This document shows positions 13,185 through 40,756 of a stretch of DNA of 40,756 bases, piece after piece. Position numbers and translations under genes: made by a program. Source of the stretch: an uncultured Bacteroidales bacterium (lineage in GTDB: Bacteria; Bacteroidota; Bacteroidia; Bacteroidales; Paludibacteraceae); the NCBI GenBank assembly GCA_902769535.1, contig CACXPH010000012.1, forward strand, positions 1 to 40,756, written 5' to 3'. The notes under the pieces were generated by a model. It worked only from the letters and a program-made list of their open reading frames with translations. It had not been told where the DNA came from and ran no database searches. The stretch's first letter is position 1, and each line of letters starts with the position of its first letter.

Positions 13185-13212
13185 AACATTCAACATTAAA
13201 CATTCAACATTA
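13185..13212. repeat. Heptamer array, unit AACATTM x4
   Basis: AACATTC and AACATTA alternate twice. The last unit contains the TAA stop codon (minus strand) of the gene ending at 13210, and the array spans most of the spacer up to the next gene's start at 13175. Confidence 0.85.
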
Positions 13213-13701
13213 GTACCGTCCTTCCATCGGAATGATACCATCCGCCTGAAGTCTTGCTTTGAGACCTGCACGGTTCACGGTCACCGTCACGGACTCTACC
13301 ATCTGGCGCCCGTCACGTTGGTAACGCGTACTTCCTACACGTTTGTCTTTGAGGCTGGCATACTGCGTCCATGCACCTCCATCGCGGAAGAAGGCATTGA
13401 AATAGTCTTCATATTTCTCCCGTGCGTTCAAGTCAAAACACAATGGTTTGAGGTCTGAGATGCCATTACTGCCGGCTTTGACGCCTTTGAAGATCACTTC
13501 TTCTACTGCTTTGCGTTGACCGTCCGTGAAAGCAATCGCTGCATCTTTGGCACGAACCTGCACGCGGATGACATAACTACCATCATAGTTGGCACTCAAT
13601 ACTTGGCTCGGTTTTTCGTAATATGCCTGCGAACGTCTCGGTCCGCATCCTGCGAATAACACCATCGCAGTTACTGCCAGTAAAAAGGATAACTTTTTCA
13701 T
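13210..13701 (-). CDS. Putative lipoprotein, paralogue of the protein at 13876-14373
   Basis: The 163-residue product carries a lipoprotein signal with lipobox LFAG-C (Cys19), so it is probably membrane-anchored. The mature part shares with the upstream paralogue a pattern of GSYVIRV, then RKAVEEVIFKG, then YFNAFFRDGG-WTQYAS, then a closing VTVTVNRAGLKARLQADGI. No function is known to me. The start codon directly abuts structured element A (13700-13862), which therefore forms its 5' leader. Its stop codon lies inside a heptamer array. Confidence 0.85.
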   Translation of the reverse strand: MKKLSFLLAVTAMVLFAGCGPRRSQAYYEKPSQVLSANYDGSYVIRVQVRAKDAAIAFTDGQRKAVEEVIFKGVKAGSNGISDLKPLCFDLNAREKYEDYFNAFFRDGGAWTQYASLKDKRVGSTRYQRDGRQMVESVTVTVNRAGLKARLQADGIIPMEGRY

Positions 13702-13862
13702 AAAAATGTTTTTTATGTTTATGTCCCTTGAATGATTTAACTCGTAAGAGGATGTAGTTTGGTAGTAAAAACTATCTAAAATTTATTTTCAGGGAGTTTT
13801 TAGTAGCAAAGTACATAGGAGCGAAGCTCTAAATCATTCAAAGGGGGTTTTATTGTTTTTTT
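13700..13862 (-). repeat. Structured cloverleaf element, copy A
   Basis: Read on the minus strand: an A-rich flank ending in AAAACCCC, a 12-bp stem P1 (13728-13739 with 13830-13841), hairpin P2 (GAGC-GAA-GCTC, 13819-13829), a long imperfect hairpin P3 (13752-13773 with 13795-13816, 19 of 22 paired), hairpin P4 (CTC-GTAA-GAG, 13741-13750), then a flank of 23 nt identical to copy B at 19898-19920. The layout matches copies B and C although the stem sequences are unrelated. It fills the gap between two paralogous genes and ends on the start codon at 13701. Confidence 0.75.
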
Positions 13863-13875
13863 CTCTAAGGAAATT

Positions 13876-14373
13876 TTAGAAACCGCTATTCAACCCTCTT
13901 ACAATGCCGGCAGCCTCTAACGCCTTGCGCAAATCGTCCTTGCGAACACTGACCGTGCAACCAACCTTGTACTCTCGGCCTACCTTCACACTTTCTGTTG
14001 TGCCACCGATGATAGAAGCGTATTTCTGGAACTCACCGCCATCCGCAAAGAAACTGTCGAAATACTCTTTGAACTGCGTCTCAGCACCCGGTGTGTTAAC
14101 CATCGGACGCTGGCTTACACAACCTTGACCACCGCCGTAACCTTTGAAGATCACACCGTGAACGGCGTTCTTACGGCATTGATTCTCCGCTACGGACGCT
14201 TTCTTGCTGTACGTCCATACCTTCACCAGATACGTGCCTTGAATAGCATTTCCACCGCATTCAATTTCATAACGGAAATTCTCGGTGTCTTTGTTCGCCT
14301 GTTTCTGGCGAAGACCTGCGCTCGCCGGTACGCACAGCGCTACGACGAGAAGCGAAAGAAGAAATTTTTTCAT
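13876..14373 (-). CDS. Exported protein of unknown function, first gene of the five-gene cluster
   Basis: The 165-residue product has a signal peptide (KKFLLSLLVVALCVPASAG). I chose the ATG at 14373; an in-frame ATG two codons upstream is an alternative, and a longer frame to 14409 would put odd residues before the signal peptide. The mature part aligns with the lipoprotein at 13210-13701 around GTYLVKVWTY, HGVIFKGYGGG, EYFDSFFADGGEFQKYAS and the closing VSVRKDDLRKALEAAGI, so the two are paralogues. A good promoter (14407-14438) lies upstream, making this the likely first gene of the operon. Confidence 0.85.
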   Translation of the reverse strand: MKKFLLSLLVVALCVPASAGLRQKQANKDTENFRYEIECGGNAIQGTYLVKVWTYSKKASVAENQCRKNAVHGVIFKGYGGGQGCVSQRPMVNTPGAETQFKEYFDSFFADGGEFQKYASIIGGTTESVKVGREYKVGCTVSVRKDDLRKALEAAGIVRGLNSGF

Positions 14374-14406
14374 AAACATATAGGGTTTAACGATATTATT
14401 CCGCCA

Positions 14407-14438
14407 CAAAAGTACAACAAATTTTCCATATACGCAAA
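14407..14438 (-). promoter_or_regulatory. Promoter of the exported-protein cluster
   Basis: On the minus strand, -33 TTTG (14438-14435), 20 bp, then -7 TACTTTTG (14414-14407). The leader to the ATG at 14373 is about 27 nt. Confidence 0.8.
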
Positions 14439-14469
14439 TATTTTACGTATTTTGTACGTAAATAGACGC

Positions 14470-14505
14470 AAAAAACGCACACATCCGAAGATATGTGCGC
14501 TTTTT
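14470..14505. terminator. Terminator of the GGGtGRT operon, UUCG tetraloop
   Basis: On the minus strand, ten pairs (CGCACATATC with GATGTGTGCG, one wobble) close a TTCG loop (14476-14499), followed by TTTTTT. The plus strand also has TTTTT at 14501-14505, so it may work both ways. Confidence 0.9.
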
Positions 14506-14527
14506 CTTAAAAATCGTTGTTACGAAA

Positions 14528-15538
14528 TTACTTATTCAGCGCCAGCGCTACATTCACTGCGCAAGCAACGGTACATCCTACCATCGGGTTGTTACCGATA
14601 CCCAGGAAGCCCATCATCTCTACGTGTGCCGGAACAGAGCTGGAGCCTGCGAACTGAGCGTCGCTGTGCATACGACCCAGCGTATCCGTCATACCGTAGG
14701 AAGCAGGACCTGCAGCCATGTTATCCGGGTGCAACGTACGACCTGTACCACCGCCCGAAGCTACGCTGAAGTACGGCTTGCCGGCCAGGATACGCTCTTT
14801 CTTATACGTACCAGCTACCGGGTGTTGGAAGCGCGTCGGGTTCGTCGAGTTACCGGTGATCGAAACATCCACGTTCTCGTGCCAGAGGATAGCAACGCCC
14901 TCACGAACATCGTCTGCACCGTAGCAGTTAACTTTCGCACGCGGACCATCGCTGTAAGCTTTCTTACGAACGATCTTCAGTTCACCGGTAAAGTAGTCGA
15001 ACTCGGTCTGTACGTACGTAAATCCATTAATACGGCTGATGATCATAGCGGCGTCTTTTCCAAGACCGTTGAGGATGCAACGAAGCGGGTTCTTACGAAC
15101 TTTGTTCGCCATCTCGGCAATCTTGATAGCACCTTCCGCAGCTGCGAAGGACTCGTGGCCTGCTAAGAAAGCAAAGCACTGTGTCTCCTCGCGCAGCAGA
15201 CGAGCTGCCAGGTTACCGTGACCGATACCTACCTTACGGTCGTCAGCTACGGAACCCGGGATACAGAATGCCTGCAGACCGATACCGATAGCCTCGGCAG
15301 CGTCAGCGGCGTTCTTGCAACCCTTCTTCAGAGCGATTGCGGTACCAACTACATAAGCCCATTTAGCGTTCTCAAAGCAGATACGCTGGGTCTCCTCGCA
15401 CGTCATATACGGATCGAGGCCATATTGCTCGCAAATCTGATTTGCCTCCTCGATGGAAGCGATACCATTCGCGTTCAGAGCGGCGAGAATCTGTTTCTCG
15501 CGGCGGTCTTGCGACTCAAATTTTACTTCACGAATCAT
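14528..15538 (-). CDS. GGGtGRT protein
   Basis: The 336-residue product contains the family's signature GGGTGRT (in SVASGGGTGRTLHPDNMAAG). It also has conserved stretches RKVGIGHGNLAARLLREETQ, FLAGHESFAAAEGAIKIA, and a C-terminal GNNPMVGCTVACAVNVALAL. The biochemical function is not established as far as I know. The family is generally found next to an IscU-like scaffold gene, as here (gap of 12 bp), so the pair probably acts together, perhaps in metal or Fe-S chemistry. It is cytoplasmic by sequence: no signal peptide. It ends at a UUCG-type terminator. Confidence 0.9.
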   Translation of the reverse strand: MIREVKFESQDRREKQILAALNANGIASIEEANQICEQYGLDPYMTCEETQRICFENAKWAYVVGTAIALKKGCKNAADAAEAIGIGLQAFCIPGSVADDRKVGIGHGNLAARLLREETQCFAFLAGHESFAAAEGAIKIAEMANKVRKNPLRCILNGLGKDAAMIISRINGFTYVQTEFDYFTGELKIVRKKAYSDGPRAKVNCYGADDVREGVAILWHENVDVSITGNSTNPTRFQHPVAGTYKKERILAGKPYFSVASGGGTGRTLHPDNMAAGPASYGMTDTLGRMHSDAQFAGSSSVPAHVEMMGFLGIGNNPMVGCTVACAVNVALALNK

Positions 15539-15550
15539 AACGTTTCCTCC

Positions 15551-16252
15551 TTAGTTTTTACGTGGATCAATTGATTTAACTGCACCTTGCTCCTTGGTTG
15601 TGCGGCCGTAGGTTCCGGTAACGCTCTTCAGAGCCTCATTGGCATCCATGCCCTTCTTTACAGCGTCCATGAACTTGCCCATGTGTACGTACTCGTAACC
15701 GCAAACCTCGTTGTCCTCATCCAGGAACTCCTTGGTGATGTAACCTTCGGTTAACTGCAGGTAACGAACGCCTTTAGCCTTGGTGGAGTAGAGTGTACCG
15801 CACTGGCTAACAAGGCCCTTACCGAGGTCCTCAAGACCTGCACCGATGGTCAGACCGCCCTCCGAGAACGCACTCTGCGTACGACCGTAAACGATCTGCA
15901 GGAACAACTCGCGCATAGCCGTGTTGATAGCGTCGCAAACGAGGTCGGTGTTCAGCGCCTCGAGAATCGTCTTGCCCGGCAGGATCTCTGCTGCCATAGC
16001 AGCCGAGTGTGTCATTCCCGAACAACCGATCGTCTCCACGAGTGCCTCTTCGATAACACCGTCTTTCACATTCAGACTCAGCTTGCAGGTGCCCTGTTGC
16101 GGTGCACACCAGCCGATACCGTGCGTCATACCCGAGATGTCCTTGATCTCAGTAGCCTTCACCCATTTGCCCTCTTCAGGAATAGGTGCCGGTCCATGCT
16201 TCGGACCCTTCGCTACAACGCACATTTCTTGTACTTCTTTCGAGTAAATCAT
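15551..16252 (-). CDS. IscU/NifU-like Fe-S scaffold domain protein, partner of the GGGtGRT protein
   Basis: The 233-residue product has Cys-bearing motifs expected of an Fe-S scaffold fold: GWCAPQQGTCKLSL near residue 50 and VETIGCSGMTHSAAMAAEIL near residue 75. The following helices (ILEALNTDLVCDAINTAMRE) also fit. NifU-type proteins assemble Fe-S clusters on three cysteines; the GCSGMTHS variant is typical of the GGGtGRT-linked group. It is the first gene of a two-gene operon with a clear promoter (16343-16374), whose -33 box lies in a 16-bp palindrome. Confidence 0.85.
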   Translation of the reverse strand: MIYSKEVQEMCVVAKGPKHGPAPIPEEGKWVKATEIKDISGMTHGIGWCAPQQGTCKLSLNVKDGVIEEALVETIGCSGMTHSAAMAAEILPGKTILEALNTDLVCDAINTAMRELFLQIVYGRTQSAFSEGGLTIGAGLEDLGKGLVSQCGTLYSTKAKGVRYLQLTEGYITKEFLDEDNEVCGYEYVHMGKFMDAVKKGMDANEALKSVTGTYGRTTKEQGAVKSIDPRKN

Positions 16253-16342
16253 GTTTGTTATAATTAGTTATTTATTGATTTGATTATTCGTTTAATTCGA
16301 TTAATTCGTGAACCATTCTTTGTTTCACATCTTTTGCGACTG

Positions 16343-16374
16343 CAAAAGTACAACTTTTTTTTGACATATGCAAA
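16343..16374 (-). promoter_or_regulatory. Promoter of the scaffold/GGGtGRT operon
   Basis: On the minus strand, -33 TTTG (16374-16371), 20 bp, then -7 TACTTTTG (16350-16343). The leader to the ATG at 16252 is about 85 nt and AT-rich. Confidence 0.8.
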
Positions 16375-16383
16375 TCTTTGCAT
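16368..16383. promoter_or_regulatory. 16-bp palindrome over the -33 box
   Basis: ATGCAAATCTTTGCAT is a perfect palindrome apart from the central two bases. It contains the -33 TTTG box of the scaffold/GGGtGRT promoter and touches the stop codon of the Nudix gene. The position suits a repressor operator; no regulator is identified. Confidence 0.45.
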
Positions 16384-16964
16384 CATTTATTGTACTTTTC
16401 TGCAAAATACCTCCACAGCGGCGCGGCATGAAGCGCCTGAATGATCTCTCCGTCGCGAAGCATCTCCAGTACCTGTTCCGGCTCGAGCACATCGACGTGA
16501 ATATCTTCCGTGGCTTCCTGGTGTTGCTCCCGCACTTTCTCCACACCTGTGGCAAGGAACGTATAGGATTTGTTGTTATGATTCGTAGGATTTGGAGAGA
16601 GCGTCATGAATAACTGCCATTCACCTCCTTCGTATCCCGTCTCCTCGCTCAGTTCGCGCTTGGCGGCCTCCAACGGCGTCTCACCCGGATCCACCACACC
16701 TGCTACGATCTCATAGTGCGTCTCGCCGAGTGCGTGGCGGTACTGATCTTCCATGACCATCTTACCATCCTTCGTGATGGCGATGACGTTAATCCAGTCA
16801 GGAAACTCCATCACGTACCATGTAGGAATCTGCTTGCCGCTTGGCAACTCCACGCACTCCTGCCGCACGGACAACCACGGTCCTAAACGCAGGATATTCT
16901 CACTCTTGAGCACCTTCCAAGCTCTGTTCTTTAGTTTCGGGTACATAGTTCTTTTCTTACTCAT
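16383..16964 (-). CDS. Nudix hydrolase (ADP-ribose pyrophosphatase-like)
   Basis: The 193-residue product has a complete Nudix box: GVVDPGETPLEAAKRELSEE followed by TGY, fitting G-x5-E-x7-REUxEExGU. These enzymes hydrolyse nucleoside diphosphates linked to another moiety; the upstream VVDPGE and downstream length fit the ADP-ribose/sugar-nucleotide group, but the substrate is inferred. I chose the ATG at 16964 (MSKKRTMYP), whose ATGAGTAA overlaps the upstream stop. An ATG at 16946 is the alternative, and the longer frame to 16985 is less likely. It is the last gene of the recF operon. Confidence 0.88.
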   Translation of the reverse strand: MSKKRTMYPKLKNRAWKVLKSENILRLGPWLSVRQECVELPSGKQIPTWYVMEFPDWINVIAITKDGKMVMEDQYRHALGETHYEIVAGVVDPGETPLEAAKRELSEETGYEGGEWQLFMTLSPNPTNHNNKSYTFLATGVEKVREQHQEATEDIHVDVLEPEQVLEMLRDGEIIQALHAAPLWRYFAEKYNK

Positions 16965-18132
16965 AGAACGCACGAATACTATCACACACGTGCCGCGGAT
17001 TTCTCAATAACGGCCTCGTGGAGTAGAAGCACTCGCCGGTGATCTCCGGTATACTCCTGTTCAATTCCATCTGCCGCTTGATCTCGTTGCCTTGCCCCCA
17101 AGGCGATTTCGCGGAAGCCCCTTCCAGCCGATAAGGCGCCATGCCGATATAGAGCTTGCAATTCGTGCCGCGAACCTCATTGGCCCACCAGTGTGCCAGC
17201 ACCTCATAATCCGCTGCTTTCTTGCCGATCTCCCAATAGAGTTGCGGCAAGACGTAGTCTATCCATCCCTCGCGAATCCACAGACGAATATCTGCGTACA
17301 GATCATCGTAATTTGTTATTCCTGCGGTCGTCGCACTACCCGTACTATCCACGCTTGCATTCCTCCACACGCCGAAAGGCGAGATACCGAACTCCACCTC
17401 TGGTTTGCACTCTTTGATCGTGCGACTAATGTCTTGTATAACCATGTTGACGTTATTACGTCTCCAGTCGCGAATATTCTCAAATCCCCGCGGATGAGTC
17501 GCAAACGTCAATGAATCAGGCAACTCCTGCTTGCCTACCGGATACGGATAGAAATAATCATCCATATGGATGGCCTGAATGTCATAATTCTGAACGATAT
17601 CTTGTACTATTGTACAAATCCATTCGCGCGTCACATCTAATCCCGGGTCGAAATACCATTGTTTGGCGTAGCACCAAAACCACTCCGGGTGACGCCGGAA
17701 TATATGTTCGGCGCAAATCACGGACGTGTCTGTTTTTGCTAAGTTCACGCGGTACGGATTCAGCCATACATGCACTTCCATGCCTCGCTTATGCGCCTCT
17801 TCTATCGTCCAGTCTAACGGATCCCACGGCGTTTGTTCTCCCCAACTACCCTGCGAGCCCGTCAGCCAATGACTAACCGGTTCTAACTCACTGTAATATA
17901 ACGCATCGGCCGTAGGCCGTACTTGAAAAATAATGGCATTGATACCGATACTCTCCAGCGAATCCAATAAGAAAATCATCTCCGCTTGTTGCTTTCCGGT
18001 ATTACCCACCGCCTCCGCGGACGGCCAATCGATATTCGCCACCGTCGCGATCCATGCCCCGCGGAAACTCACCTCCGCGTGCAGCGAAAGTGCCATAAAG
18101 AGCCATAGTCCTATGTGTCGCAATCGGTTCAT
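16957..18132 (-). CDS. Family 10 glycosyl hydrolase-like protein (GHL10)
   Basis: The 391-residue product has a signal peptide (NRLRHIGLWLFMALSLHAEV) and then the GHL10 (YngK-type) barrel. Visible parts are RGAWIATVANIDWPS, INAIIFQVRPTADALYYS, MEVHVWLNPYRVN, IQAIHMDDYFYPYP, FGISPFGVW and WIDYVLPQLYWEI. Family members are thought to cleave polysaccharide or peptidoglycan-related glycans; the true substrate is unsettled. It is exported to the periplasm or surface. The start overlaps the upstream stop by four bases (ATGA) and the Nudix start overlaps its own stop, so the genes are translationally coupled. Confidence 0.9.
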   Translation of the reverse strand: MNRLRHIGLWLFMALSLHAEVSFRGAWIATVANIDWPSAEAVGNTGKQQAEMIFLLDSLESIGINAIIFQVRPTADALYYSELEPVSHWLTGSQGSWGEQTPWDPLDWTIEEAHKRGMEVHVWLNPYRVNLAKTDTSVICAEHIFRRHPEWFWCYAKQWYFDPGLDVTREWICTIVQDIVQNYDIQAIHMDDYFYPYPVGKQELPDSLTFATHPRGFENIRDWRRNNVNMVIQDISRTIKECKPEVEFGISPFGVWRNASVDSTGSATTAGITNYDDLYADIRLWIREGWIDYVLPQLYWEIGKKAADYEVLAHWWANEVRGTNCKLYIGMAPYRLEGASAKSPWGQGNEIKRQMELNRSIPEITGECFYSTRPLLRNPRHVCDSIRAFYE

Positions 18133-18638
18133 TTCCTTTTAGCTACGGTTTGTTCCTGAAAATGCAGGATGGCGGTTCTCAAGCTTTTGCTGAACCCCAA
18201 GTCATGTAAGGTAGTTCGTGTCACGAAATTTGCCGCCTTGTGGTTGCCTTCGTTGACCACTTCAAACGGATCTCGCAACTCAATAGCGGTGATGTCCTCT
18301 TCTCGCAGTTGTGTAAAAACTAGTTCCCGTTCTTCGCATGACTTGTTATCGCTCACTTGCAGCACCTCAAAACTGATAGAATAGCTGTAGTCCGGGTAGC
18401 GTTCCTCTAAATATGCCCGGACAGTATATTCATTCACGTCCTCGTCATAAGGCATAGTGTAGAGGCGATTAAACCGTCCGGTCTGTATATCCGGGTGCGC
18501 CTTGCGTTTCCTCTCTGCTCGGATAATTCTTGGGATGTATGCGTTGCGTTTTTTAACTTGTATGTAGAGAATGATCAGCGCAGGAATACCTGCCAATACG
18601 GCGATGATAGTCAGTTCTATGAGTGTCTTATGGTCCAT
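18129..18638 (-). CDS. Membrane-anchored protein of unknown function
   Basis: The 169-residue product has one N-terminal membrane helix (LIELTIIAVLAGIPALIILY). A basic stretch (KKRNAYIPRIIRAERKRKAH) and a soluble domain follow. No family is recognised. It lies 11 bp downstream of recF and overlaps the GHL10 start by four bases, so it is part of the same operon. Codon use looks like its neighbours. Confidence 0.8.
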   Translation of the reverse strand: MDHKTLIELTIIAVLAGIPALIILYIQVKKRNAYIPRIIRAERKRKAHPDIQTGRFNRLYTMPYDEDVNEYTVRAYLEERYPDYSYSISFEVLQVSDNKSCEERELVFTQLREEDITAIELRDPFEVVNEGNHKAANFVTRTTLHDLGFSKSLRTAILHFQEQTVAKRK

Positions 18639-18649
18639 ACGAGTTTCAC

Positions 18650-19747
18650 TTAGTGAATCACTCCATTCTCTACATGGAAGATCTTGGCATTCTCGTTCGG
18701 TTTCAATATCTCCGTCAAATGTTGCCGGTCGGTGTCGGTAATGAAGATCTGACCGAATTTATCCGATTGAACGAGTTGGACAATGCGTTCCACACGCTCG
18801 CTGTCGAGACGGTCGAAAATATCGTCGAGCAGCAAGATGGGCTTGCCGATATAAAGCGCTTGCGCGAGTTTCAGCGCAAGCACAAAAGTGCGTTGCTGTC
18901 CTTGGCTTCCCACTTGCTTCAAAGGCCACTCTCCTAATCGCATCTCGAGCTCATCTTTATGAATACCTTGACTTGTCCATCCGAGTATCAGATCGCGCTG
19001 GCGTGTCTTGATATACGCTTCGCGTAAATCGCGATCTTGTAACTGAGAAACATAACGTAATTGCGGCACTTCCGCCGAACCGCTTATTTTGCTGTAGGTT
19101 TCTGCGAAATACGGTTCAAATGCTTCAAAAAACTCGGTTCTTGCCTTAAAGATATATTCTGCCAACGGCGTCATCTGCCATTCCAAAACCTCCAGCAAAT
19201 CGTCCGGACAAGACCCGTCTGCGTGCTGTTTCAATAAGGCGTTGCGCTGTTTCAACAACGCGTTATACTGCGTCAGGTAGTCCAGATATTTGCGGTCCAA
19301 CTGGCTGATAACTACGTCCATAAACCGCCGTCTCTCATCGCTTCCCTCGTCAATCAACTGCTGGTCACTCGGACTGATCATCACAAGCGGAATCAATCCT
19401 ATATGGTCGATCAGTCTTGGATAATCCTTCTTATCCCGCCGAAACTGCTTCTTGACACCTTTTCGCAAGCCACACGAGATGGTCATCATTTCACCATTAA
19501 GCGAAGCGTCACCATTCTCATCATTATACACTCCCTGTACCATCGCCATCTCTTCGCCGTGCGTGATATTGAGAGAATCTTGGTTCGTGAACGAAGACTT
19601 AGCAAAACTAAGCAGATAGATCGCGTCCAGCACATTCGTCTTGCCTTGCCCGTTGAGCCCCACGAAGCAGTTGAGTTTCGGACTAAACTCCAAACTCGCC
19701 TCGCGTATATTGCGATAGTTTAATATGTTAAGCGATTGTAGGATCAT
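18650..19747 (-). CDS. recF: DNA replication and repair protein RecF
   Basis: RecF is an SMC-like ATPase that helps load RecA at gapped DNA with RecO and RecR. The 365 residues show Walker A GLNGQGKTN (near residue 30), the ABC signature GSQGQQRTFVLALKLAQAL and Walker B PILLLDDIFDRLD, with the typical opening LQSLNILNYRNI. It opens a compact operon with three unrelated downstream genes. The start is only 9 bp from the edge of structured element B (19756-19920), so its promoter must lie in the element or upstream of it. No clean -33/-7 pair was found. Confidence 0.95.
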   Translation of the reverse strand: MILQSLNILNYRNIREASLEFSPKLNCFVGLNGQGKTNVLDAIYLLSFAKSSFTNQDSLNITHGEEMAMVQGVYNDENGDASLNGEMMTISCGLRKGVKKQFRRDKKDYPRLIDHIGLIPLVMISPSDQQLIDEGSDERRRFMDVVISQLDRKYLDYLTQYNALLKQRNALLKQHADGSCPDDLLEVLEWQMTPLAEYIFKARTEFFEAFEPYFAETYSKISGSAEVPQLRYVSQLQDRDLREAYIKTRQRDLILGWTSQGIHKDELEMRLGEWPLKQVGSQGQQRTFVLALKLAQALYIGKPILLLDDIFDRLDSERVERIVQLVQSDKFGQIFITDTDRQHLTEILKPNENAKIFHVENGVIH

Positions 19748-19755
19748 GTTCTTAT

Positions 19756-19920
19756 AACAAAAACCTATAAAACCCCTCGTTGTTTATAGCACGTACGTGC
19801 TCTCGTGTATTTGGCCGCTTGTTGTCTCATTCAAGCGAGTTTGATGAACCATCAATCGCCCCAATCCACACTCTTGCGAGTTATAAACAACGAGGAAATA
19901 AACATAAAAAACATTTTTAT
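19756..19920 (+). repeat. Structured cloverleaf element, copy B
   Basis: Read on the plus strand: an A-rich flank ending in AAAACCCC, 14-bp perfect stem P1 (19775-19788 with 19882-19895), P2 palindrome GCACGTACGTGC (19789-19800), a branched P3 region (CGCTTG/CAAGCG and TTGATG-AAC-CATCAA), P4 (CTC-TTGC-GAG, 19871-19880), then the 23-nt flank shared with copy A (19898-19920). It lies between the recF start and the TPR stop codon, overlapping the latter. Its orientation is opposite to copy C, with which it brackets the TPR gene. Confidence 0.75.
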
Positions 19921-20648
19921 TTTTGTTGATTCAGTAATTCTTCCACGTAGGATATATTTGCTTTAATCAAATCATCATTCGGACTCAATTTGAGTGCCTT
20001 ATGGAAATGTTCTAAAGCCGTCTTATAGTCTTTGCGGTAGAAGTAAATTCCTGCTAAATCATTCCAGTACTCAGCACGTTTAGGAAAATATTCAACGGCA
20101 ATATTAGCTAAACGCTCTGCATCGTCCAATTGGTCGGCTTCAACAAATCTACTATAATCTTCTTGCACGCGGCTGAACAGAATATCTTCAGTCTTAGCTA
20201 ACCGTTCATTATTTGACCATAGCCATTTACCTTTGTTTTTGCGTTCTCTCTGCAATGCAAGACCAACTACCTCAATCATATTTTTACTATCTAAACAATA
20301 TAGATAGCCAGTAGCCAAGCCCAAATATAAATCTAAACGATCTGGATACTTAGCGATACCTTCTCTTAAAATGCAGAAAGCAGAATCTATTTGCATAGAA
20401 TCAATAATCATGTAACCGTTGTATAGATATCCTGCTATTCCTCCGTTAGCTGTATCCTGCAACGTTAACATTTGTTCGCCATAAGCGTAGAGCGGTAATT
20501 CTACCGACGTAGTAATACCGGAGTGAAGACCCTTATTTAAATGTTCGTTGAACATAGCAGCATAATCATCACCGCTCTTCAGAGGATTTGCAGCAGACAA
20601 ATAGGCTACCGTTAACAATAAGAGGATAGATAAGATATACTTCTTCAT
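19917..20648 (-). CDS. Exported tetratricopeptide-repeat protein
   Basis: The 243-residue product has a signal peptide (KKYILSILLLLTVAYLSAAN) and a clear C-terminal TPR (EYWNDLAGIYFYRKDYKTAL, EHFHKALKLSPNDD). An earlier repeat-like stretch includes AFCILREGIAKYPDRLDLYL. TPRs mediate protein-protein contacts; the partner is unknown. The gene is visibly richer in A+T than recF and the response regulator on either side. It is bracketed by structured elements B and C in inverted orientation, with their conserved flanks touching its stop and start codons. This suggests it moved in as a cassette. Confidence 0.85.
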   Translation of the reverse strand: MKKYILSILLLLTVAYLSAANPLKSGDDYAAMFNEHLNKGLHSGITTSVELPLYAYGEQMLTLQDTANGGIAGYLYNGYMIIDSMQIDSAFCILREGIAKYPDRLDLYLGLATGYLYCLDSKNMIEVVGLALQRERKNKGKWLWSNNERLAKTEDILFSRVQEDYSRFVEADQLDDAERLANIAVEYFPKRAEYWNDLAGIYFYRKDYKTALEHFHKALKLSPNDDLIKANISYVEELLNQQK

Positions 20649-20810
20649 AATTGTTTTTTATGTTAATGTCTGATTGATAATTTTAATTCATAGAATTAGA
20701 AGATTTATTTGGAAAAGCATTGCAAATTTATTTGTGAATGATTTTGCTAAATAAAGATTCGGATGTACGCAGTACTAAAATTATCAATCAGGGTTTTTTC
20801 TGTTTTTTTT
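20648..20810 (-). repeat. Structured cloverleaf element, copy C
   Basis: Read on the minus strand: an A-rich flank ending in AAAAAACCC, 15-bp perfect stem P1 (20670-20684 with 20777-20791), P2 (GTAC-GCA-GTAC, 20765-20775), an imperfect long hairpin P3 (about 20699-20758), P4 (TAATTC-ATA-GAATTA, 20684-20698), then a flank very similar to copies A and B (ACATTAACATAAAAAAC). It begins a few bases past the response regulator stop codon and ends at the TPR start codon. P1, P2 and P4 differ in sequence from the other copies while pairing is kept. Confidence 0.75.
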
Positions 20811-20817
20811 AAAATAA

Positions 20818-21996
20818 TCACGCATACGCCTCTACATCCGCGGCGCTAATCTCATTCCCTGCCAAAATAATCAGTCGCTCGACCACATTGCGCAACTGAC
20901 GGATGTTTCCGGTCCAGTTTTTGCTCTGCAAAGCCTTAATGGCTTCATCATCAAAAATCTTCTTGGCAATGCCCTGTTCACCGCATATCTGTTCTGCAAA
21001 ATGATCCACGAGCAGCGGAATATCTTCCAATCGGTCATTAAGCGCCGGCACGGCGATAGGAATGACGTTCAGACGATGGAACAAATCCTCTCGGAAATTA
21101 CCCTTAGCAATCTCGTCCGCCAAGTTCTTATTCGTGGCCGCTAGCACGCGCACATTCACCTTAATCGCCTTGTCCGAACCGACGCGTGTGATCTCGTTCT
21201 CTTGGAGTGCGCGTAGCACTTTGGTCTGTGCCGCGAGACTCATGTCGCCTATCTCGTCCAAGAACAGCGTTCCTCCGTCGGCCTGCTCGAACTTACCCGC
21301 TCTGTCCTTTACAGCTCCCGTAAACGAACCTTTCATATGACCGAACAACTCGCTCTCGATCAACTCGCTCGGGATAGCGGCGCAGTTAACCTCCACCATC
21401 GGACCGTTCGCACGGGCCGAGTTCTCATGAATCAAATGCGCCACCACTTCCTTTCCGGTTCCGTTCGGACCGGTGATGAGCACACGCGCTTCCGTCGGCG
21501 CTACCTTATCTATTATTTCGCGTACGCGTAAGATAGCCGCACTCTCACCCACCATCGTTGCACCCTTGGAAACGATCTTCTTGCGCAGTTGTTTGGTCTC
21601 CTGCTTGAGTGTCTTGGACTCCAACGCATTCTTCGTTGTGATCAAAATACGGTTCAAATCCAGCGGCTTCAGCAGAAAATCATAAGCCCCAGCCTTGAGT
21701 GCCTGCACCGCTGTCTCCACATCTCCGTGACCGGAGATCATCACTACCGGACAATCCTCCCTTCCCTCTAGGGAGGGGTCGGGGGTAGGCTCTTTTAATG
21801 CCTTGAGCACTTCCATCCCGTCCATTTCCGGCATTTTGATGTCCGAGAAAATAAGGTCGTAAGCCTTCGCCTGTGCCATCTCCAGACCTTGCTTGCCATT
21901 CTCGGCTACTTCCGCTTCGTGCCCCTCGTCTGCTAAAATCTCACGAAGGGTGTTACGTATCCCGCGTTCGTCGTCTATAATAAGAATTTTCGCCAT
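20818..21996 (-). CDS. Sigma-54-dependent response regulator (NtrC-type) without a DNA-binding domain
   Basis: The 392-residue product has a receiver domain (AKILIIDDERGIRNTLREIL, phospho-acceptor region LIFSDIKMPEMDG, then VVMISGHGD). An AAA+ domain follows, with Walker A GPNGTGKE, a GSFTGA version of the sigma-54-contact loop, GGTLFLDEIGDM and an arginine finger region NFREDLFHRLNVIPI. It ends soon after NIRQLRNVVERL with no Fis-type helix-turn-helix, so it may act without binding DNA itself. I chose the ATG at 21996; the frame extends 26 codons upstream into promoter sequence. Between helix 3 and strand 4 of the receiver, the segment PTPDPSLEGRED is encoded by a 37-nt palindromic repeat (21757-21793). 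Confidence 0.93.
   Translation of the reverse strand: MAKILIIDDERGIRNTLREILADEGHEAEVAENGKQGLEMAQAKAYDLIFSDIKMPEMDGMEVLKALKEPTPDPSLEGREDCPVVMISGHGDVETAVQALKAGAYDFLLKPLDLNRILITTKNALESKTLKQETKQLRKKIVSKGATMVGESAAILRVREIIDKVAPTEARVLITGPNGTGKEVVAHLIHENSARANGPMVEVNCAAIPSELIESELFGHMKGSFTGAVKDRAGKFEQADGGTLFLDEIGDMSLAAQTKVLRALQENEITRVGSDKAIKVNVRVLAATNKNLADEIAKGNFREDLFHRLNVIPIAVPALNDRLEDIPLLVDHFAEQICGEQGIAKKIFDDEAIKALQSKNWTGNIRQLRNVVERLIILAGNEISAADVEAYA
21757..21793. repeat. 37-nt palindromic element inside the response regulator
   Basis: The core CCCTTCCCTCTAGGGAGGGG is a near-perfect palindrome, followed by a G-rich stretch ending in TAGGCTCT. It matches the element at 33883-33919 at 31 of 37 positions, in the same window orientation. 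It is read in frame as part of the receiver domain, in a surface loop. Confidence 0.85.
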
Positions 21997-22013
21997 AATT
22001 GCAAATTTGGCTA

Positions 22014-22045
22014 CAAAAGTACAACAAAAAAATGAATTATGCAAG
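22014..22045 (-). promoter_or_regulatory. Promoter of the response regulator
   Basis: On the minus strand, -33 CTTG (22045-22042), 20 bp, then -7 TACTTTTG (22021-22014). The leader would be only about ten nucleotides. This also supports the ATG at 21996 as the start. Confidence 0.75.
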
Positions 22046-22079
22046 TAAAACTTTTTTTTTACAAAAAAATGCAAATAAA

Positions 22080-37701: not shown

Positions 37702-40700
37702 ATGAAAACAAAAATTTTGGTCCTCTTATTTACCTTTTCTGTAGGTGTAGGGACTCTGTATTCTCAAACTGTCATTTCAGTTGGCGCTAAATTAAGTTGG
37801 AGTTTATCCAATGGTACACTTACTATTAGTGGTAATGGAGCGATGAACGATTTTAATTACTCTACTAGTCATCCATATACAACAAAAGAGTCCCCTTGGT
37901 ATTCTGCAAGGGCCTCAATAAAGAGAGTGGTTATAAATAGTGGCGTCACAAGTATTGGAAGTAGTGCTTTCTTTGGTTGCAGCAGTTTGACCTCTGTGAC
38001 GATACCTAATAGCGTCACAAGCATTGGAGATAGCGCTTTCTATAATTGCACCGGTTTGACCTCCGTAACGATTCCCAACAGCGTTACAAGCATTGAAAAT
38101 AATACTTTCCAAAATTGCAGCAGTTTGACCTCTGTGACGATTGGCAATAGCGTCACCAGCATTGGATATCAGGCTTTCACTGGTTGCAGCAGTTTGACCT
38201 CTGTGACGATTCCCAATAGCGTCACAGAAATTGACTGGTATGCTTTCTCTGGTTGCGGCAGTTTGACCTCTGTGACGATTGGCAATAGCGTCACCAGCAT
38301 TGGATTTCAGGCTTTCTATGGTTGCGGCAGTTTGACCTCTGTGACGATTCCTAATAGCGTTACAAGCATTGATGATGAAGTTTTCATGTGGTGCAGCGGT
38401 TTGACCTCTGTGACGATAGGCAATAGCGTCACAAGCATTGGACATAAAGCTTTCTATAGGTGCAGCGGTTTGACTGGAGAATTAGTCATTCCCAATAGCG
38501 TCACAAGCATTGGAGATGGTGCTTTCTCTATTTGCAGCGGTTTGACCTCTGTGACGATTCCCAATAGCGTCACGAGCATTGGAAGTAGTGTTTTCTCTCA
38601 TTGCAGCAGTTTGACCTCCGTAACGATTCCCAACAGCGTCACAAGCATTGGAGGTACTGCTTTCTTTGGTTGCAGCAGTTTGACCTCTGTGACGATTCCC
38701 AATAGCGTCACAAGCATTGGAGGTAGTGCTTTCGCTGGTTGCAGCAGTTTGACCTCTTTGACGATTCCCAATAGTGTTACAAGCATTGGACAAGGTGCTT
38801 TCGCTGGTTGCAGCGGTTTGACCTCTTTGACGATTGGCAGTAGCGTCACCAGCATTGGATATCAGGCTTTCGAAGGTTGCAGCGGTTTGACCTCTTTGAC
38901 GATTCCCAATAGCGTCACAGAAATTGACTGGTATGCTTTCCAAAATTGCACTGGTTTGACCTCCGTAACGATTCCCAACAGCGTCACAAGCATTGGAGAT
39001 TATGCTTTCTCTGGTTGCACCGGTTTGACCTCCGTAACGATTCCCAACAGCGTCACAAGCATTGGAGGTAGTGCTTTCGCTGGTTGCAGCAGTTTGACAT
39101 CTGTGGTATGGAATGCAAAGAATTGCAGTAATTCCGGTAATTTCGGTAGTCAGGTGACCTCATTTACATTTGGGGAAGAAGTGGAAGTTATTCCGGCATC
39201 AATTTGTGCTGGAATGACCAACCTTACTTCCATTACTATTCCCAGCAGCGTCACAAGCATTGGAAATTATGCTTTCGAAGATTGTAGTGGTTTGACCTCT
39301 GTGTCGATTCCTAATAGCGTCACTAACATTGGAAATAGTGCTTTCTATAATTGCACCGGTTTGACCTCAGTAGCCATCAATTCACCAGACATAGTTGGAA
39401 AATCATATACATCTTTTTTCAATATCAAAAATATATTTGGATCTCAAGTTACACTATATATTATTGGTGATAGCATTACAAGCATTGGAAATAATGCTTT
39501 CTATAATTGCACCGGTTTGACCTCTGTGACGATCCCCAATAGCGTCACCAGCATTGGAGGTAGTGCTTTCTCTCGTTGTACCGGTTTGACCTCTGTGGCG
39601 ATTCCAAATAGCGTCACCAGCATTGGAGATGGTGCTTTCGGTAGTTGCAGCGGTTTGTTTTCTGTGACCATAAATTCAGATTCAATAGTAAGTAAATCTA
39701 ATTTAAGTAGCATATTTGGCACTCAAGTAGAGGAATATATCATCGGCGATGGCGTCACCAGCATTGGACAGGATGCTTTTCGTGATTGCACCGGTTTGAC
39801 CTCTGTGACAATTCCCAATACCGTCACCAGCATTGGAGAGTATGCTTTCTCTGGTTGCAGCAGTTTGACCTCTGTGACAATTCCCAATACCGTCACCAGC
39901 ATTGCAAGATATGCTTTCTCTGGTTGCAGCGGTTTAACCTCTGTTATATGGAACGCAAAGAATTGTGCTGATTTTGCATCAATCAATACTCCTTTTTACT
40001 CAGGACTGGTGTTTTATCGCTTCGATTTACGACCACAAATCACATCTTTTACATTCGGTAACGAAGTAGAGCATATTCCTGCCAACCTATGTAATGGCAT
40101 GTCTAATTTGACCTCCATTGAGATTCCCAATAGTGTCACCAGCATTGGATATGCTGCTTTTTCTGGTTGCAGCGGTTTGACCTCTGTGACGATACCCAAT
40201 AGCGTTACAAGCATTGGAGATGATGCTTTCTGCAGATGCACCGGTTTGACCTCTGTGACGATTCCCAATAGCGTTACAAGCATTGGAGATGATGCTTTCT
40301 GCAGATGCACCGGTTTGACCTCTGTGACGATTCCCAATAGCGTCACCAGCATTGGACAGTCTGCTTTCTCTGGTTGCACCGGTTTGACCTCTGTGACGCT
40401 TGGCAATAGCGTCACAAGCATTGGAGAGGATGCTTTCCGTGATTGCATCGGTTTGACCTCTGTGACGATTCCCAGCAGCGTCACCAGCATTTGGTATTCT
40501 GCTTTCGAAAATTGCACCGGTTTGACCTCTGTGACATGTTTGGCACCAACTCCACCGACTTGTTTGTGGTCGTCTTTTTCAGGAGTAAATTGTTCAAATA
40601 TACCATTGTATGTCCCAATGGAATGTGTCAGTTTGTATCAAGCAGCTTACATATGGGAGGAATTTAATGTAATAGGAGTAATGTTCGCCGACGAAGTAGA

Positions 40701-40756
40701 GACAGCCGTCTTCTCTGCTACCCCAACGGATGATTATGGCGTAATCTTGGAATGGC
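37702..40756 (+). CDS. BspA-like leucine-rich repeat surface protein (C-terminus missing)
   Basis: The reading frame from the ATG at 37702 stays open to the window end: 1018 codons are present, with no stop. It starts with a signal peptide (KTKILVLLFTFSVGVGTLYS) and the usual BspA opening (LSWSLSNGTLTISGNGAMND). About 31 repeats of 23 residues with the pattern LTSVTIPNSVTSIGxxAFxx followed by C-[ST]-[SG] come next, interrupted by spacer motifs at four places. It then reaches a closing motif (IPLYVPMECVSLYQAAYIWE) and the start of an Fn3-like domain (PTDDYGVILEW). BspA proteins bind host or bacterial surfaces; the role here is inferred. Repeats 27 and 28 are nearly identical in DNA (69 bp), a recent duplication. 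Confidence 0.95.
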   Translation, partial: MKTKILVLLFTFSVGVGTLYSQTVISVGAKLSWSLSNGTLTISGNGAMNDFNYSTSHPYTTKESPWYSARASIKRVVINSGVTSIGSSAFFGCSSLTSVTIPNSVTSIGDSAFYNCTGLTSVTIPNSVTSIENNTFQNCSSLTSVTIGNSVTSIGYQAFTGCSSLTSVTIPNSVTEIDWYAFSGCGSLTSVTIGNSVTSIGFQAFYGCGSLTSVTIPNSVTSIDDEVFMWCSGLTSVTIGNSVTSIGHKAFYRCSGLTGELVIPNSVTSIGDGAFSICSGLTSVTIPNSVTSIGSSVFSHCSSLTSVTIPNSVTSIGGTAFFGCSSLTSVTIPNSVTSIGGSAFAGCSSLTSLTIPNSVTSIGQGAFAGCSGLTSLTIGSSVTSIGYQAFEGCSGLTSLTIPNSVTEIDWYAFQNCTGLTSVTIPNSVTSIGDYAFSGCTGLTSVTIPNSVTSIGGSAFAGCSSLTSVVWNAKNCSNSGNFGSQVTSFTFGEEVEVIPASICAGMTNLTSITIPSSVTSIGNYAFEDCSGLTSVSIPNSVTNIGNSAFYNCTGLTSVAINSPDIVGKSYTSFFNIKNIFGSQVTLYIIGDSITSIGNNAFYNCTGLTSVTIPNSVTSIGGSAFSRCTGLTSVAIPNSVTSIGDGAFGSCSGLFSVTINSDSIVSKSNLSSIFGTQVEEYIIGDGVTSIGQDAFRDCTGLTSVTIPNTVTSIGEYAFSGCSSLTSVTIPNTVTSIARYAFSGCSGLTSVIWNAKNCADFASINTPFYSGLVFYRFDLRPQITSFTFGNEVEHIPANLCNGMSNLTSIEIPNSVTSIGYAAFSGCSGLTSVTIPNSVTSIGDDAFCRCTGLTSVTIPNSVTSIGDDAFCRCTGLTSVTIPNSVTSIGQSAFSGCTGLTSVTLGNSVTSIGEDAFRDCIGLTSVTIPSSVTSIWYSAFENCTGLTSVTCLAPTPPTCLWSSFSGVNCSNIPLYVPMECVSLYQAAYIWEEFNVIGVMFADEVETAVFSATPTDDYGVILEW

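Follow-up and report, generated by a model that had tools for sequence, protein, structure and literature searches.

What kind of element holds its shape while its letters change? The question is raised by the window, our name for a whole stretch of 40,756 nucleotides (contig CACXPH010000012.1 of assembly GCA_902769535.1) from an uncultured Bacteroidales bacterium of the Paludibacteraceae, in which an earlier note, made from the letters alone, had described three cloverleaf elements, A, B and C. When we read and folded the sequence, all three were present at the places given. Our analyses indicate that A, B and C are probably ends of a small transposon family with cloverleaf DNA ends, found in gut and rumen bacteria. 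The earlier note had not recognized B and C as paired ends of a single unit, nor had it noticed the gene for a GxxExxY nuclease in full elements or the outer box that belongs to each end.

Each end is about 145 nt long and has four arms, the family layout having P1 as closing stem (14 pairs in our model), P2 and P4 as short hairpins and P3 as a long hairpin with interruptions. Element A, a solo cloverleaf of type 1, lies on the minus strand at 13708..13851, with its outer box reaching to about 13864; no partner end was found for it within the window. Element B, an end of type 2, occupies 19768..19912 on the plus strand (outer box to about 19756) at the stop of a cargo gene, and element C, a type 1-like end, occupies 20653..20798 on the minus strand (outer box to about 20812) at the cargo-gene start. 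Compared with dinucleotide shuffles, fold stability reached z-scores of -8.2 for A, -5.7 for B and -5.3 for C, and none of 200 shuffles was as good for any element. The four-arm layout held for C in part: its minimum-energy fold keeps P1 but has no clean P3 or P4, and the family model recovers the four arms with several non-standard pairs. There are thus three real copies, but they are not three independent ones, since B and C face each other and bracket a single 740-bp spacer.

The 23 bases said to be identical between A and B are ATAAACATAAAAAACATTTTTAT, and they are present as claimed. The conserved inner flank is also present, but B reads AAATAAAC, with one mismatch to ACATWAAC. The conserved part extends further than first described, with an outer box, (A)ACAAAAAC...AAAACCC, directly outside P1. 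An outer and an inner box occur at both ends of an element; the boxes are alike at the two ends, whereas the cores are unlike. Being inverted at both ends, the boxes form terminal inverted repeats as in a classical DDE insertion sequence or miniature inverted-repeat transposable element (MITE). At one place (L008:298-314, G000:C7:12197), outer and inner box letters are joined directly without a cloverleaf, which may be a scar left by the loss of a core, or may simply be low-complexity sequence.

The earlier note had proposed a covariance-model search for further copies, and such copies were found both in the window's own genome (1.89 Mb in 39 contigs, 85% complete) and in relatives of the same genus. 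Diverged copies in the own genome were first found by a search with the inner flank and element A, and were then fetched and folded. RNAalifold detected no structure in a MAFFT alignment of both types because the two types were misaligned; type 1 was therefore aligned alone, with the structure set by hand from per-sequence folds. We built a covariance model from eight copies (R1) and a combined model (R2), whose E-values are rough owing to short calibration. In the window's genome, R1 returned 29 rows at E ≤ 10, which reduce to 19 sense-strand copies, the eight training copies included, once two chance rows (E > 1) and eight rows that mirror better copies on the opposite strand are removed. 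B and C, both absent from its training set, scored 67.3 bits (E 1.0e-10) and 66.6 bits (E 1.5e-10), respectively. With R2, A scored 143.4 bits (E 9.8e-30), B 98.7 bits (E 7.2e-20) and C 84.6 bits (E 8.9e-17), all three being in its training set and thus matching by construction.

Under filters stricter than those used for the window's genome, R1 was run over 61 genomes (the own genome, 36 of the same genus and 24 of other families) and matched at least 23 of them, namely the own genome and at least 22 of the 36 others of the genus; among the matches listed, all matching genomes belong to the same genus. Over the wider order, R2 found copies in at least four of 295 genomes, two of them of the same genus, an undercount given the very strict pre-filter and the 10 candidates scored per genome. 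Xylanibacter brevis ATCC 19188 and Prevotella sp. P3-122, both cultured strains by name, hold 12 and six model matches, respectively.

Having assembled a family, we could examine how its stems vary. One alignment (A7) held 43 genus copies, drawn from 36 of 43 sources with an E limit that keeps sense copies; the other (A9) held 107 copies (106 distinct) from 55 of 80 loci chosen for stronger hits, labelled as several families. Both were fitted to the model, a procedure that favours pairing, but not A·C over G·U. In the 43 copies, pairing is found in 90.8% of cells, and both partners vary at 44 of the 45 base pairs, with 441 double-change cells. Their covariation score was 0.617 against a shuffle mean of 0.197, a value reached by none of 500 shuffles, and partners slid out of register scored at most 0.114. 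In the 107 copies, 89.5% of cells pair, all 45 pairs change on both sides, and the covariation score was 0.846 against 0.196 in shuffles. Two coarse measures did no better than shuffles on the 107 copies (both-side change was reached by 72 of 500, the number of pair types by 242 of 500), as almost all pair types are represented at almost all pairs. The stems thus covary significantly, as the earlier note had expected; pairing is high, but it is not perfect as had been claimed.

RNA stems tolerate G·U, but not A·C. With one mostly T·G column left out, the 107 copies contain 4,095 Watson-Crick, 57 G·U, 137 A·C and 336 other cells, and the 43 copies contain 1,674, 25, 59 and 107, respectively; the cells are not independent, so P values on these counts are nominal. 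G·U and A·C cells number 13 and 30 in P1, 10 and 5 in P2, 22 and 74 in P3, and 6 and 10 in P4, while the tip of P3 has 53 and 22 when its fixed T·G column is included. In 13 distinct tRNAs of the fetched loci there were 252 Watson-Crick, 27 G·U and no A·C cells, a control biased by ARAGORN, which asks for pairing. Since G·U is rarer than A·C and both are rare beside Watson-Crick pairs, the cloverleaf shape is held at the level of DNA, not RNA. Of the two options that the earlier note had left side by side, a mobile DNA cruciform or a structured RNA, the former is therefore favoured. The excess of A·C over G·U mispairs in the 107 copies is also a strand asymmetry and may mark the folding strand; if one strand matters, the complement of the strand read here is the more likely one.

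Further evidence comes from sites that lack the element in relatives, which we found both for the unit B-C and for A. The unit (19748..20817, ±5 bp, minus strand) consists of C, the cargo gene and B, and lies between recF (18650..19747, minus strand; NCBIfam TIGR00611, E 2.1e-94) and a gene for an ntrC/ntrX-like sigma-54 response regulator (20818..22074, minus strand; best NCBIfam match NF051870, E 1.9e-129, 432 bits, below the cut-off of 600). Its edges were taken from the filled site, which reads GCGTGATTATTTT...ATAAGAACATGATCC as opposed to GCATGATACTACAG in the empty site of a relative (G002), so that the insertion preserves one gene's stop and the other gene's start. Among 30 recF loci of the genus, only the window's own holds the cargo gene with both ends. 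In 18 of the 29 others, ntrC is next upstream of recF, within about 50 bp or overlapping in 16 of the 18 (counted by reading). The gap is 169 bp without a model hit in one locus (L159) and 181 bp in another (L151, genome G034), where it contains a single weak, very AT-rich cloverleaf (31.2 bits, positions 2675-2814) that is unlike the unit B-C and apparently represents an independent insertion at the same junction. At the remaining 11 loci, the neighbour is a different one, the match is partial or the contig ends.

The cargo gene (19917..20648, minus strand) encodes a tetratricopeptide repeat (TPR) protein of 243 aa (Pfam TPR_1, E 9.9e-9) with an N-terminus that looks signal-peptide-like by eye. 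It is 83% identical to a TPR protein located between cloverleafs in RUG14487 (G029), whose own ntrC-recF junction is empty (L150); the same cargo is thus present at different loci.

Element A separates two tandem paralogues, a small gene downstream (13210..13701, minus strand) and its upstream relative (13876..14409, minus strand; the second match in the own genome, E 9.6e-17). A search of 41 genomes found a match in 29; 26 of these have two, and in 25, among them the own genome, the two are adjacent. When R2 was run on 26 loci of the downstream gene, only the own locus held a copy. The proposal that A, B and C have fixed ends and are not a shared leader was therefore borne out by the further copies, the covarying stems and the empty sites; a shared leader is rejected because copies occur in both orientations and are missing in relatives.

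What lies between paired ends pointed to a candidate enzyme. The window's genome contains three facing pairs of neighbouring copies, with spacers of 51, 389 and 740 bp, and relatives contain facing pairs with 29- and 45-bp spacers. Of seven facing pairs examined, two enclose an intact GxxExxY gene, accompanied by a second open reading frame (ORF) in one genome (G028) and by the TPR gene in RUG14487. A pair on contig C22 of the own genome encloses a C-terminal GxxExxY remnant (by eye) together with a different ORF. In the window pair the TPR gene stands alone, and the spacers of the other three pairs measure 29-51 bp. The GxxExxY protein matches TIGR04256 (E 6e-30, 104 bits, cut-off 35) and PF13366 PDDEXK_3 (E 1e-30, 106.8 bits, cut-off 22). 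Residues E43, D83, E93, K95, Q107 and Y111 are invariant over 42 aligned sequences, and the PD-(D/E)XK site is intact, with a predicted catalytic role for these residues. A search by sequence found no match in the PDB; a weak fold match linked the nuclease to the homing catalytic domain of I-Bth0305I (3r3p, E 0.14). No match was found in phages, and five plasmid records matched at about 40% identity or less.

We scanned genomes of 84,980 species with one GxxExxY protein and used the best 80 of 118 loci, which carry labels of Bacteroidales, Bacteroidetes or families and genera of that order and come mostly from rumen and gut assemblies. R2 placed a cloverleaf on the gene strand within 600 bp upstream in 65 of the 80 and a facing one within 1.5 kb downstream in 66. 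Ends were present on both sides in 55 loci, on at least one side in 76, and on neither in four (L214, L226, L234 and L249); space was lacking upstream in two loci and downstream in two. These counts used 176 of 204 R2 rows, after opposite-strand mirror hits and rows weaker than about E 0.014 had been dropped, and because the loci were chosen by gene, the rule runs from gene to ends. Between model edges, full elements span 737-1,534 bp (median 890, n = 54), and our listing of boxes covers 54 of the 55 two-sided loci (L233 was left out) and seven pairs from elsewhere. The minimal full element (G028:C1) consists of a type 2 end, the GxxExxY gene and a type 1 end, with 771 bp between model edges, and among the 15 closest loci (L172-L186), 14 have 6-12 bp between the model edge and the start of the gene. 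In Prevotella sp. P3-122 (L230:1214-4083), seven cloverleaf ends surround a single GxxExxY gene within about 2.9 kb, forming a small array.

Within the genus, a GxxExxY gene scoring over the cut-off was found in 12 of 23 genomes with copies, among the matches listed, versus two of 14 genomes without copies, which constitutes a link, not a strict one. More distant GxxExxY genes of the genus have weak or no R2 hits, and among the folds seen, several form branched hairpins beside the gene. The GxxExxY genes seen in other families gave no significant R2 hits. By eye, three in other Bacteroidales families (L128, L140 and L124) are flanked on either side by short inverted repeats (ACACTAAGACACGGAG or ACACAGAGTTAACACGGAG, for example) and not by cloverleafs, suggesting that GxxExxY genes may be mobile more widely.

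Some related insertions were found to differ in their cores. Two loci, L219 and L221, carry the same insertion in two related genomes, with flanks 92.6% and 90.7% identical and a gene region 98.6% identical. Their boxes are identical or nearly so, and the cores of both ends are unrelated in sequence; these cores still fold as branched structures closed by P1, less cleanly at the right end of L221. For the left core of L219, a relative with 88% identity lies at another position in the genome of L221, and relatives with 77-79% identity lie elsewhere in the genome of L219 itself. Two explanations fit, an exchange of cores between ends or two hits at one site. The left ends of L198 and L199 show a similar difference, whereas L174 and L175 align straight through. 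Modular mosaics of helices were seen in a few pairs only, and we do not rely on them.

Over 50 elements, there was no signal of a target-site duplication; the ntrC-recF site has (A/G)TGAT on both sides. Palindromic targets appeared enriched in an initial test (mean 5.48 versus 4.91, 0 of 300), which partly reflects the inverted repeat itself. With the last 8 bases omitted, the excess was weak (4.94 versus 4.62, P 0.016; pairs of at least 7 bases, 4 versus 2.4, P 0.21), and we rejected this preference.

We infer from these observations that the mobility enzyme is GxxExxY; the strand chemistry of movement proposed here is likewise conjectural. A full element of about 0.74-1.5 kb would comprise an outer box, a cloverleaf core, an inner box, the GxxExxY gene, sometimes one cargo gene, and the same parts inverted. 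On an exposed strand, the end would fold into a four-way junction, and the PD-(D/E)XK protein would recognize the fold together with the boxes and cut there. The freed element, or a single end, might then enter a new intergenic site, either by being joined to it or by copying. Derivatives without the gene, such as the unit B-C, the pairs with 29-51-bp spacers and solo copies such as A, would have been moved in trans, and repair of cuts from another copy could produce the core swaps. We consider the chances even that this is a new class of transposable element, that its ends are recognized as four-way-junction DNA, that one Cas4-like GxxExxY nuclease moves it, and that whole cores are overwritten or traded between ends. 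Letters would then drift freely, with pairing restored by the mechanism itself and not by selection alone.

Another enzyme, for example of the Y1/RAYT type or a tyrosine recombinase, might instead move the ends, with GxxExxY as a frequent passenger, an alternative that we regard as improbable. The window's genome and nine further genomes of the genus have copies and no GxxExxY match, and there are precedents in REPINs, whose movement in trans is attributed to RAYTs, and in integron cassettes, which move as folded single strands. Against it, GxxExxY genes of this subfamily stand beside ends in 76 of the 80 loci, their starts lie close to the model edge in 14 of the 15 closest loci, and their catalytic residues are kept. 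Y1_Tnp (PF01797) matched 16 of 37 genomes of the genus, strongly only G026, and had no match in the window's genome G000 or in G028, G002, G004 and G033, all of which have copies (the searched genomes are incomplete, G004 and G033 being 96-97% complete); tyrosine recombinases were not searched.

The two remaining alternatives dispense with transposition, and we hold both to be very improbable. A riboswitch, leader or small RNA scattered by chance or recombination would account for four stable helices, for the position of A and C just before start codons and for the wobble counts of P2 taken alone. Over all stems, however, G·U is not preferred, unlike in the tRNAs, and copies occur in mixed orientation to genes, as inverted pairs and with empty sites. 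Rfam and tRNA searches gave no match in the window, the former at gathering scores; at E ≤ 5, nine copy-holding loci yielded two tRNAs, neither of them within a copy, and four rows that fell far short of their gathering scores; of these four, MIR837 and TeloSII_ncR33 overlap copies. A structured RNA is rejected on the wobble count, the absence of an Rfam family at gathering scores and the empty sites. Binding sites for host proteins, such as nucleoid or terminator-like cruciforms spread by gene conversion, would agree with the exchange of cores between loci and the existence of solo copies, yet the empty sites lack the whole unit, and inverted pairs surround the nuclease gene in genomes of several families. 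We therefore retain a transposon with cloverleaf DNA ends as our interpretation.

If correct, a four-armed DNA shape, and not sequence alone, would be a new way to mark transposon ends, and a function would be suggested for GxxExxY. The copies would also provide a natural record of DNA-level covariation without wobble preference, in which hairpin-templated repair can be tested against selection in keeping DNA palindromes. Elsewhere in the window, a long open frame at 37702-40755 with repeats of the type SVTSIG...AF..CS.LTSVTIP runs off the end; we take it to encode a leucine-rich BspA-like surface protein.

The cloverleaf-ended mobile family is apparently undescribed. As the earlier note had supposed of the layout, no description of such an element appeared in the available text of the best matches from the full-text literature, a scope that excludes preprints and most subscription papers. 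GxxExxY is named in PMC8934634, and no study of the family was found in the full-text literature.

Several known systems nevertheless share features with it. REP and REPIN sequences with their RAYTs likewise have multi-copy palindromic ends, single or in inverted pairs, and non-autonomous copies beside a single small enzyme gene that has such ends on either side; REP palindromes, however, are short hairpins of about 20-40 bp, in contrast to covarying four-armed cloverleafs of about 145 nt, and RAYT is an HUH (Y1) enzyme, whereas the candidate here is of the PD-(D/E)XK type. The attC sites of integrons, which lie beside single genes, are recombination sites that vary in their letters and conserve the shape of a folded DNA strand, but there is one site per cassette and a simple imperfect hairpin, as opposed to two facing ends per unit and a four-way fold. 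IS200/IS605 elements are small and have structured ends that need a folded strand (PMC6006769). They differ in having short subterminal hairpins without inverted repeats, and an HUH TnpA. The MITEs of Porphyromonas gingivalis, of the same order, are small and non-autonomous with inverted repeats. These MITEs were described by conserved sequence, whereas the cores here share shape. Free-standing endonucleases of the homing type, finally, also have a small gene whose product could, through cutting followed by repair, spread the gene and its flanks, but the insertion sites here are varied and, where seen, mostly intergenic, and the element brings its own structured ends.

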